Positions 4,570 through 6,766 of a DNA stretch of 64,000 nucleotides are shown here, piece after piece (position 1 is the first letter of the stretch; every line of letters starts with the position of its first letter). The notes below the pieces were generated by a model that searched no databases, had not been told where the DNA came from, and saw only the letters and a program-made list of their open reading frames with translations. The DNA is from Candidatus Litorirhabdus singularis (GTDB lineage Bacteria > Pseudomonadota > Gammaproteobacteria > Pseudomonadales > Halieaceae): contig NZ_SHNN01000001.1 in assembly GCF_026262625.1 (NCBI RefSeq), forward strand, positions 248,001 through 312,000, in the 5' to 3' direction. The translations under genes were made by a program, and so were the position numbers.

Positions 4570-5481
4570 GTGCATCACTCATTACCAGACAAGGTACGGA
4601 TTGTAGAAGTGGGCGCGCGCGATGGCCTGCAGAATGAACAAGCCACTGTTCCCGTGCCAGTGCGCATTGAACTGATCCAACAGCTGGCGGACGCCGGTTT
4701 GAGTGCCATTGAAGCCGGCAGCTTTGTTAACCCCAAGTGGATTCCGCAAATGGCGGCCAGCGAGGACGTCTTCGCCGGCCTGCAGAAACGACCGAACACA
4801 CAATACGCCGCCCTCACCCCCAATCTGCAAGGTTTTGAGCGGGCGCTGGCGGCAGGCGCTGATGAGGTCGCCGTGTTCGCTGCAGCCTCCGAGGCCTTCA
4901 GCCAAAAGAACATCAACTGCTCTATCAGTGAGAGCCTGAAAAGATTCGAACCGGTGATGATTGCCGCAGCCAAGGCCGGCATTCCGGTGCGAGGCTACAC
5001 CTCCTGCGTGCTGGGCTGTCCCTATGAGGGCGAGTCGGATCCGCAAATTGTACTGCAGGTTACCCGCGCCCTGCTCGATATGGGCTGCTACGAAGTCTCG
5101 CTGGGCGACACCATCGGCACCGGCACAGCCGGCTCCATGACTACGCTGCTGGAGGTGCTGCTAGCAGAACTACCCGCCGCCAGTTTGGCCGTGCACTGCC
5201 ACGACACCTATGGCCAGGCACTGGCCAATATTCTGGTGGCACTGCAACTGGGCATTGCGACAGTGGACGCTTCGGTCGCCGGCCTCGGTGGCTGTCCCTA
5301 TGCTAAAGGCGCGACCGGGAATGTGGCGACAGAAGACGTGGTTTACCTATTGCAGGGCCTGGGTATCGACTGTGGAGTGGACCTCGAGCGCTTGATTGCT
5401 GCCGGACAATTTATTTCTCAGCACCTGCAGCGCAGTAATCAGTCACGGGTCGCTCAAGCGCTGCTGAATCGGGCCGGATAA
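4570..5481 (+). CDS. liuE: Hydroxymethylglutaryl-CoA lyase
   Basis: Cleaves 3-hydroxy-3-methylglutaryl-CoA to acetyl-CoA and acetoacetate, the last step of the leucine route built by the preceding genes. The TIM-barrel protein of 303 residues opens with [15 protein letters not shown] (metal-binding Asp) and carries the C-terminal loop [16 protein letters not shown] with the catalytic cysteine typical of HMG-CoA lyases. I chose the GTG at 4570, four bases after the liuD stop with AGAGG upstream, over an in-frame ATG at 4513 lying inside liuD. It is the last gene of the operon; no clear hairpin terminator follows. Confidence 0.93.
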
Positions 5482-5585
5482 GACGGTAAACAAGCAAAAA
5501 TTGCGGCGCCGACAAGAATGATCAAAATGCTCCGCAGGGCCCGTAAAATGGCGGCCTCGCCCGAAAAAACCCTACCTTGACGCAA

Positions 5586-5612
5586 AGTGTGACCAAGTTC
5601 CGGTTAGTGTCA
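5586..5612 (+). promoter_or_regulatory. Possible activator (UAS) site upstream of the sigma-54 promoter
   Basis: Two copies of AGTGTNA, at 5586-5592 and 5606-5612, lie exactly 20 bp apart, about two helical turns, roughly 80-100 bp upstream of the -24 element of the PEP-CTERM gene. Sigma-54 promoters need an upstream-bound activator, so the spacing and distance are suggestive. The motif has no independent support and could be chance. Confidence 0.25.
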
Positions 5613-5687
5613 GCTATTTTTACAGAGCCCTTTAACCAGCATGGGTAAATGCTCGATCAACCGCGTCTTTGCTGGTTTCTCCATTAT

Positions 5688-5703
5688 TGGCACGCTAGTT
5701 GCT
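5688..5703 (+). promoter_or_regulatory. Sigma-54 (-24/-12) promoter of the PEP-CTERM gene
   Basis: The sequence TGGCACG-CTAG-TTGCT matches the sigma-54 consensus TGGCACG-N4-TTGCW at every defined position. The invariant GG (5689-5690) and GC (5701-5702) are separated by 10 bases as required. Transcription would start near 5713-5715, giving a leader of about 35 bases before the ATG at 5750. It sits alone upstream of a single gene, so this gene probably answers to RpoN plus an enhancer-binding activator encoded elsewhere. Confidence 0.8.
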
Positions 5704-5749
5704 ACATCTCTATCACTTAATGAAAAATAGCACTTATTGGAGCAGGACG

Positions 5750-6283
5750 ATGAAAAAATTAAAGACATTGATGGCAGGTTTGGCGATCGCCGTAAGCGCC
5801 ACCACCGCACAGGCGGGCTTGCTAATCGTAGACATTGCTGGCTGGGGGACTGGCCCCGCTGATCCCAACTCTGCTCAGTATAACCTTGGTGTTGGTACCC
5901 TGATAACCGGGGCGTCCTACGAGGGTCTCGCGTTTGAATCCAGCGATAACGCCTACAACGATGAGCTATTGCTTTCACTCAACGACAGCAGTGCTTATGT
6001 ATCATTTTGGGATGTCAATGTTGCAGGTACTGGAAACGTCCAGGGGCCGTTCGGTCAAGTAAGCGCACCCTTCGCCAACCCCGGATATTTGGGCGGGCCC
6101 TTCACCCTTACTACTGGCCTCCTGTGGGTGGAAGTGTACACAGAGGGTGATGCCAGCCTCCAGTCCATAAGTGAAGGTTTCCTCAACATCCAGTACGAGA
6201 CTGCACAGGTTCCGGTTCCCGCTACCCTGGCCCTGTTTGGTCTCGGCTTACTCGGCCTCGGCTTCTCACGCCGCAAAGCCTGA
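5750..6283 (+). CDS. PEP-CTERM sorting-domain protein, exported
   Basis: The 177-residue protein begins with a Sec signal peptide (MKKLKTLMAGLAIAVSATTAQA) and ends with a PEP-CTERM-type sorting signal: VPVPATL, a hydrophobic stretch ALFGLGLLGLGF, then SRRKA. Such tails are recognised by exosortase/EpsH and the proteins are processed and delivered to the cell surface, often with exopolysaccharide. Here the usual PEP is VPVP, a common variant. The middle is Gly/Asn/Ser/Thr-rich, predicted beta, without cysteine, and I recognise no domain. The ATG at 5750 is preferred over upstream starts because it gives the signal peptide, has GGAG before it and lies downstream of the sigma-54 promoter. No exosortase gene is in the window. 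Confidence 0.88.
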   Translation: MKKLKTLMAGLAIAVSATTAQAGLLIVDIAGWGTGPADPNSAQYNLGVGTLITGASYEGLAFESSDNAYNDELLLSLNDSSAYVSFWDVNVAGTGNVQGPFGQVSAPFANPGYLGGPFTLTTGLLWVEVYTEGDASLQSISEGFLNIQYETAQVPVPATLALFGLGLLGLGFSRRKA

Positions 6284-6302
6284 TCTTAACCGCTCTACTT
6301 CT

Positions 6303-6327
6303 AAAGCCCGCTTCGGCGGGCTTTTTT
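6303..6327 (+). terminator. Rho-independent terminator with UUCG tetraloop
   Basis: A perfect 9-bp stem (AAAGCCCGC at 6303-6311 with GCGGGCTTT at 6316-6324) closes a C(UUCG)G loop and runs into six T residues (6322-6327). It begins 20 bp after the PEP-CTERM stop codon and closes a one-gene transcription unit. Confidence 0.92.
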
Positions 6328-6373
6328 GTGGGTACCTGTTACGCCGCCAGCGCTGGCGCAAAAGCCATGACCT

Positions 6374-6766
6374 GTGTACATTCCCCTTCTTAAGTCGTTA
6401 CCCATAGAGACCCCGGTGCCAGTAGCCGCTACCCGCCGCGCACGTGACCTCGCCGCCGCCCTGATGCTCTGTGGCGGCGTACTTAATATCGCCCAGCTGT
6501 GGCTGTTCCCGCTGGGCGGCACCACCATAGTCGCATCCGTCTTTGGCCTGATGTACCTGCTGGTTTTTTTAGGACTAGCCGGACAATCGCGGTTTACGCT
6601 GTGGTTGGCGGTGCTGATTCCAGGACTCGGCGTGGTGGCGGGCGTTGCCCGCTACGTGTCACCGGCCCCTGCCGAAATCGCGCTGGTCAATGTTGCCCTG
6701 AACCTGACGGTGATCATTATTTGCGCCGGCATTTTAATACGCACGCGTCATGTGCAGATGGACTAG
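6374..6766 (+). CDS. Hypothetical four-helix membrane protein
   Basis: I do not recognise this 130-residue protein. About four hydrophobic helices can be seen, near residues 26-47, 52-71, 73-91 and 102-122, separated by short loops, with a basic C-terminus (RTRHVQMD), so it is an inner-membrane protein. The start is uncertain: GTG at 6374 gives the longest frame, but a GTG at 6416 would drop only the hydrophilic leader. It ends three bases before the glutaminyl cyclase gene, so the two are probably cotranscribed. Confidence 0.6.
   Translation: MYIPLLKSLPIETPVPVAATRRARDLAAALMLCGGVLNIAQLWLFPLGGTTIVASVFGLMYLLVFLGLAGQSRFTLWLAVLIPGLGVVAGVARYVSPAPAEIALVNVALNLTVIIICAGILIRTRHVQMD

Follow-up and report, generated by a model that had tools for sequence, protein, structure and literature searches.

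A predicted PrsR-activated sigma-54 promoter of a PEP-CTERM gene in Candidatus Litorirhabdus singularis and whole-turn spacing in related promoters

The stretch of DNA analyzed here (64,000 nt, hereafter the window) carries a small PEP-CTERM gene behind a sequence resembling a sigma-54 promoter, which raises the question of whether the gene belongs to a regulon switched by PrsK-PrsR and RpoN and, if so, by which arrangement of sites (Table 1). The first-pass annotation had described the promoter as a perfect -24/-12 consensus, and all 11 defined positions of TGGCACN5TTGCW were indeed found to be matched. With the geometry that we take to apply to sigma-54 promoters, the start of transcription is predicted at 5714, inside the interval of 5713–5715 that had been expected. 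At 5699 and 5720 there are in-frame start codons, which lie before and just after this start, respectively, and are without a clear ribosome site. No sigma-70-like site was found on the plus strand between 5400 and 6450, both sites detected there being on the minus strand. The element is separated from the ATG by 46 nt, which lies within the range of 23–221 nt for the promoter class of Haft et al. (2006).

Absent from the first-pass annotation was a perfect copy of the PrsR box, located 63 nt upstream of the -24 element. In Haft et al. (2006; PMC1569441), a 17-nt motif that ends in TTTACA is followed by a spacer and a sigma-54 motif before proteobacterial PEP-CTERM genes; the spacer measures 62.8 ± 10.6 nt (range 32–92), the layout occurs at 99 of 167 PEP-CTERM genes and PrsR is predicted as the binder of the first motif. 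The window site shares with this class the 17-nt motif (judged by the description in that text), the spacer length (63 nt against the mean of 62.8 nt), a -24(GG)/-12(GC) element, a single-gene unit, a long upstream region and a genome in which prsK and prsR stand in tandem. On account of this layout of box, 63-nt spacer and -24/-12 element, and of the presence of PrsR and PrsK, the site is assigned to the known class of PEP-CTERM-box promoters. The -24/-12 element is very probably the docking element of RNA polymerase at a PrsR-activated, sigma-54-dependent promoter of this class. The earlier proposal that the gene is a likely PrsK-PrsR/RpoN target is thus supported, both by the perfect box and by the regulators encoded in the genome.

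Table 1. Features of the PEP-CTERM gene and its upstream region (positions in the window).
Feature	Position	Strand	Basis
PrsR box (Haft motif 1) TGTCAGCTATTTTTACA, predicted binding site of PrsR (NtrC-type activator)	5608..5624	+	TGTCAGN5TTTACA, 0 mismatches
63-nt spacer	5625..5687	.	commonest spacing, 36 of 221 sites
Weakly IHF-like site (WATCAANNNNTTR with 2 mismatches) at offset 21 counted from the box	5646..5658	-	no better than chance
Sigma-54 -24/-12 element TGGCACGCTAGTTGCT	5688..5703	+	sequence and pattern scan
Predicted transcription start (+1)	5714	+	counted from -12 = 5702 with the presumed sigma-54 geometry
Shine-Dalgarno-like GGAG	5739..5742	+	sequence; seven bases before the ATG at 5750
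Gene for 177-aa PEP-CTERM protein, end VPVPATLALFGLGLLGLGFSRRKA	5750..6283	+	TIGR02595 and PF07589
PEP-CTERM sorting signal, residues 153–175	6206..6274	+	PF07589
Terminator-like hairpin, then T-run	6303..6324	+	folding

The description of the gene as a single-gene unit with its own terminator was borne out, as the upstream gene stops at 5481 and the hairpin and T-run follow the coding sequence, with the 46-nt stretch that contains the hairpin folding at -21.4 kcal/mol (z -5.0). The hairpin is not an entry of the consensus terminator scan, perhaps because its stem uses up three of the six Ts. The 177-aa product scored 31 bits against PF07589 (cut-off 20.7) and 22.2 bits against TIGR02595 (cut-off 16); the triad of its sorting signal is PVP, not PEP, and its N-terminus resembles a signal peptide by eye. 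Its status as an orphan holds insofar as no gene but itself was matched over the full length among 140 genomes of the family, but a distant relative in G018 is possible on sequence similarity. That genome gave the longest (residues 33–177, 35% identity, 29 bits) of the weak matches seen in 18 other genomes of the 140, and those matches that were listed all include the C-terminal signal. A search for related loci returned 71 pattern stretches, of which none was confirmed, and, with no usable orthologues, the comparison set for the window promoter consisted entirely of promoters from other genes. An AlphaFold2 model of the protein, built without an alignment, had a mean pLDDT of 35 and was set aside.

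A PEP-CTERM gene with a -24/-12 element, an upstream activator element and its own putative terminator is also found in Aquincola tertiaricarbonis RN12, where the -24/-12 of pepA has been mapped, the upstream element is termed a “previously predicted enhancer” and transcription needs RpoN1 (PMC9850573). The two cases differ in that RpoN dependence is known for pepA and only predicted for the window gene. They also differ in the protein, since the window product reaches 37.7 bits against the PepA flocculation model NF033554 (cut-off 80) and was rejected as a PepA. The dependence of PEP-CTERM genes on PrsK-PrsR and RpoN, cited in the first-pass annotation as reported, stands in print for RpoN at one such gene, but the part of PrsK-PrsR is only called probable in that study, in which a prsK mutant was not restored by a plasmid with prsK or with prsK-prsR (PMC9850573).

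The -24/-12 sequence of the window gene is the sole perfect match in the 64 kb. With one mismatch allowed, four matches were seen against 4.18 expected from shuffles, and such near-matches are accordingly regarded as noise. The whole genome holds 22 perfect matches, compared with four for the reversed pattern, so that about one fifth of them could be due to chance and the hexamers alone are no proof of function; it is the context, i.e., the perfect PrsR box 63 nt upstream, that indicates function for the window element. It had been suggested that perfect sites be sought before PEP-CTERM genes and used to find the rest of the regulon. Enrichment was confirmed, with three of the 22 lying before PEP-CTERM genes (0.016 expected in 24 × 300 bp), but as a regulon finder the element proved poor: a box within one mismatch accompanies only four of the 22, which belong to the window gene, a giant RTX gene and two further PEP-CTERM genes. 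Conversely, only four of 38 box promoters have a perfect -24/-12, and perfect sites also precede other genes, among them a glutamine-synthetase-like gene (named by eye), which makes the element a weak probe. Long reading frames enclose some of the 22 sites (L008, L014, L017, and L021).

The PrsR box is the better probe. With no more than one mismatch allowed, the pattern TGTCAGN5TTTACA has 64 occurrences in the genome (36 copies being perfect) against eight for the reversed control, and 38 of the 64 are followed within 25–110 nt by a -24/-12 element with a score of at least 15.5 (of 18). Genes with sorting-signal-like tails stand behind 30 of these 38 promoters; by tail pattern, 18 are of the VPLPA/VPIPA kind and eight of the VPxPAT or PEP kind to which the window protein belongs, and four were assigned by eye. 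Among the other eight are an acyltransferase of the exosortase system (TIGR03694, 170 bits, cut-off 112), a filamentous adhesin (NF012204, 141 bits, cut-off 60; 26 bits against the Pfam TPS model, under its cut-off of 33.5), the RTX giant, a protein of 91 aa that matches no family, a site at C11:603965 lacking a clear gene and a probable chance match at C1:432359. One activator thus appears to serve the substrates of two exosortases, with XrtA-like and VPLPA (XrtD)-like tails, the latter being putatively assigned to XrtD by the name of the model. The literature covered, mostly outside subscription journals, yielded no paper combining exosortase, XrtD and VPLPA-CTERM pairwise. When the genome was approached from the genes, PF07589 gave 26 matches, of which two (L045 and L048) were judged by eye to be chance and dropped. 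Twenty-one of the 24 that look real have their own box (at most two mismatches) and -24/-12-like pair (at most three), all in register; one of the remaining genes is probably the second in a tandem and two have no box pair within 110 nt.

The genes for rpoN, prsK, prsR and an exosortase were all found in the genome, so that the proposal is not refuted by the lack of an exosortase and of an RpoN activator that had been put forward as grounds for abandoning it. PrsR scored 715 bits against TIGR02915 (cut-off 502.6) and PrsK 720 bits (cut-off 300), their genes adjoining on C11 at ~449.9–453.3 kb. There is one RpoN and there are three exosortases, namely XrtA (356 bits, cut-off 208), a VPLPA-type XrtD (555 bits) and one more. 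Both ihfA and ihfB are present, and PrsR, PrsK, XrtA, IhfA, and IhfB all exceed their curated cut-offs. A 746-aa protein (L060:9345-11582, C15:279345-281582) combines a fatty-acid-hydroxylase domain (residues 86–222, 106 bits) with an exosortase domain (residues 297–544, 115 bits); as it falls below the XrtA cut-off, it is perhaps an exosortase of an unnamed type.

The arrangement was followed beyond this genome with the box combined with TGG-N9-TGC at 38–99 nt. Among the 140 genomes of the family, 155 sites were found in 44, including the 23 sites of the genome studied here, and the reversed control gave none. Among 397 genomes drawn evenly from the phylum, sites were present in 27, this genome included, with one match for the reversed control. 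All 66 sites of the 26 further genomes form the phylum set used for spacing, in which the sites of our own genome were left out.

Judging from the behavior of NtrC-type activators and of IHF, these elements may be expected to act as follows. PrsR, phosphorylated by PrsK, would assemble at the box, and the 63 bp between box and promoter would be bent, probably by IHF in many members of the class. The bend would bring the AAA+ ring of PrsR to the RpoN-polymerase waiting at the -24/-12 element, and the promoter would be opened through ATP hydrolysis. A short monocistronic mRNA from ~5714 would then give a small secreted protein, whose C-terminal signal would be handled by an exosortase, XrtA being likely for the tail of the window protein. 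As such a loop and bend would be short and stiff, PrsR would be confined to a fixed face of the helix, and spacings would be expected to differ by whole turns.

The part of IHF was assessed in 100 distinct spacers (38 from this genome, 32 from the family, and 30 from the phylum). An IHF-consensus match with no more than one mismatch was present in 55 of them, where dinucleotide shuffling (200 rounds) gave 11.5 ± 3.2 (maximum 21), and 17 perfect matches were found compared with 0.66 (maximum 4) in 200 shuffle rounds. The excess was seen in each group, with 21 of 38 in this genome (4.0 in shuffles), 11 of 32 in the family (1.9), and 23 of 30 in the phylum (6.4). In the commoner, reverse orientation, 41 of 48 matches lie 20–22, 30–32, 41–43 or 52–54 nt after the box, where ~17% would be expected; these offsets were named after inspection of the data, and the shuffle tests are independent of them. 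Measured from the other side, the matches lie mostly ~22, 32 or 43 nt before the -24. It is possible, if somewhat doubtful, that this A/T-rich element in register is an intrinsic bend or the site of another factor: 45 of the 100 spacers have no match at one mismatch or fewer, the columns of the consensus are generally A/T-rich and the window copy is poor. Against this stand the excess of perfect matches over shuffles, the register of the reverse-orientation matches and the presence of ihfA and ihfB. A part for IHF in the class of PrsR promoters is therefore considered likely. For the window gene itself, help from IHF is a guess, since its own best match has two mismatches, as shuffled spacers usually give; better copies at such offsets are found in other members. 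A general role for IHF between the activator site and the sigma-54 promoter is stated in PMC7962754. Many of the present promoters share with IHF-assisted ones the order of activator site, IHF-consensus site and -24/-12, and they differ in that the distances are short and change in one-turn steps throughout a regulon, that the match in the window copy is weak and that the IHF site is a prediction. No paper linking PEP-CTERM with IHF was found in the literature searched, again mostly without subscription journals.

The identity of the activator was considered next to the distribution of PrsR. In the 140 genomes, box and PrsR occur together in 36, box alone in eight, PrsR alone in four and neither in 92 (Fisher p 3e-21). 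The eight of 44 box-positive genomes without a PrsR match (G042, G045, G049, G052, G077, G119, G121, and G123) have a completeness of 74–100, and four of the 40 genomes with PrsR have no perfect box pair. If the promoter instead answered to some other activator of the NtrC type and a protein other than PrsR occupied the box, this would be compatible with the 34 candidate regions that the TIGR02915 search gave in this genome (11 of which were scored), as these make other NtrC-type activators likely, and with at least one perfect -24/-12 lying before a gene of another kind, the glutamine-synthetase-like one. We nevertheless hold this to be very improbable in view of the co-occurrence of the box with PrsR proper, and of PMC1569441, where the box profile in other species singled out PrsR, PrsK, and PrsT.

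Activation by PrsR through a short DNA loop would leave its mark in the spacing, and the 221 spacings of the two surveys were found to fall into 41–43 (3 sites), 49–55 (50), 58 (1), 59–66 (101), 72–77 (47), 83–87 (13), and 92–97 (6), with peaks near 53, 63, 74 and 85 and with 44–48, 56–57, 67–71, 78–82 and 88–91 empty. The pattern ranges (38–68 and 69–99) had been set after inspecting the spacings of our own genome, and within a range no spacing is favored. The phase concentration at 10.5 bp, R(10.5), was 0.80 for the 155 family sites and 0.73 for the 66 phylum sites, and reached at most 0.23 when each spacing was jittered by up to 5 (2000 rounds); the Rayleigh values count related sites as independent. 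The best-fitting period is 10.9–11.2, slightly above 10.5. Within the genome studied here, phasing is slight among the 26 box matches that have no good -24/-12 (R 0.31, compared with 0.81 for the other 38), and several of these 26 appear to be second, farther copies, or chance. The lone family site at a spacing of 58 belongs to G077, one of the genomes without a PrsR match. The mean spacing of 64.8 (SD 10.7) compares with 62.8 (SD 10.6) in Haft et al. (2006), whose spread may also be made of whole-turn steps; a term search of the text of PMC1569441 found neither helical quantisation of the spacer nor an IHF-like site.

Peaks of this kind might also arise by duplication of a few ancestral promoters and not by selection for helical phase. 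PEP-CTERM genes do multiply within genomes, sites of related genomes are not independent and, among the 17 spacers of 53 nt, one pair shares 83% of its bases. Recent duplication fails to account for the peaks, since spacers of the same length are only about one-third identical (mean pairwise identity 0.32, maximum 0.51, for 19 spacers of 63 nt; 0.35 for the 17 of 53 nt) and the peaks stay when spacers more than 60% alike are dropped, which removes two of 100. They are also seen again in other families and, beyond the class, in four genomes (G479, G358, G184, and G280), where eight of eight sites fall within them, and insertions and deletions always equal to one turn would themselves require selection; we regard duplication as a very improbable source of the pattern. 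The least credible reading is that the -24/-12 resemblance is accidental and that a different promoter drives the gene. Even with about four of the 22 perfect genome matches expected by the reversed-pattern control, the window element has a perfect box in register 63 nt upstream, the plus strand in 5400–6450 shows no sigma-70-like site and the same arrangement stands at 20 other PEP-CTERM genes of the genome.

Taken jointly, these data make it rather probable that PrsR box, IHF site and sigma-54 promoter are held on fixed faces of the helix across classes of Pseudomonadota, with the segments between them evolving by whole turns only (box to IHF site ~21, 31 or 41 nt; IHF site to promoter ~22, 32 or 43 nt). 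In the same reading, a single PrsR regulon would here join XrtA-like and VPLPA/XrtD-like substrates, surface proteins without a PEP-CTERM match (the filamentous adhesin and the RTX giant) and the exosortase-system acyltransferase. The dependence of sigma-54 activators on the face of the helix is known, mainly from engineered promoters and insertions. The principle is hence not new, and what is added is a naturally quantised regulon; no paper joining RpoN, helical phasing and an enhancer-binding protein was found in the same kind of literature search.

With the activator, its site and the promoter of this regulon all readable from the sequence, a list of candidate genes for matrix and adhesins can be drawn up with the box as sole guide, even for relatives in which genetics is lacking. 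Such a search is made more precise by the whole-turn rule, as matches out of register become doubtful. The ~200 natural promoters also form a series for how a sigma-54 activator reaches the polymerase over 50–90 bp, and the membership of IHF in the PEP-CTERM switch is made testable.

Several sites deserve separate mention. The spacer of the window gene contains a perfect 8-bp inverted repeat (AACCAGCA/TGCTGGTT, 5634–5641 and 5670–5677), which is possibly the site of a further regulator, or chance. The RTX giant (L062:2-9862, minus strand) comprises at least 3287 aa with an LEPR-like start and runs off its contig; a perfect -24/-12 with an in-register, one-mismatch PrsR box lies ~390 nt before it (C1:10304-10320, minus strand), the gap representing, it would seem, an extended leader or a small gene that was overlooked. 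At C11:603965-603981 (plus strand, L145), a one-mismatch box, a spacer of 64 nt and TGGCATGATGCTTGCT follow one another without a clear gene downstream, and this site perhaps belongs to a small RNA under PrsR control or to a gene that is broken. The PEP-CTERM gene L035 (C1:1739841-1740158) has two box copies, with the best -24/-12 lying 137 nt after the nearer one; it is possibly a long-range member, 137 nt being about seven turns beyond the usual 63. Farther second copies of the box upstream of the promoter-proximal one were observed at C1:694661/694820, C16:6418/6655, C16:7985/8221 and C16:71766/71906, and a passage of PMC1569441 likewise describes motif 1 as repeated in another species.
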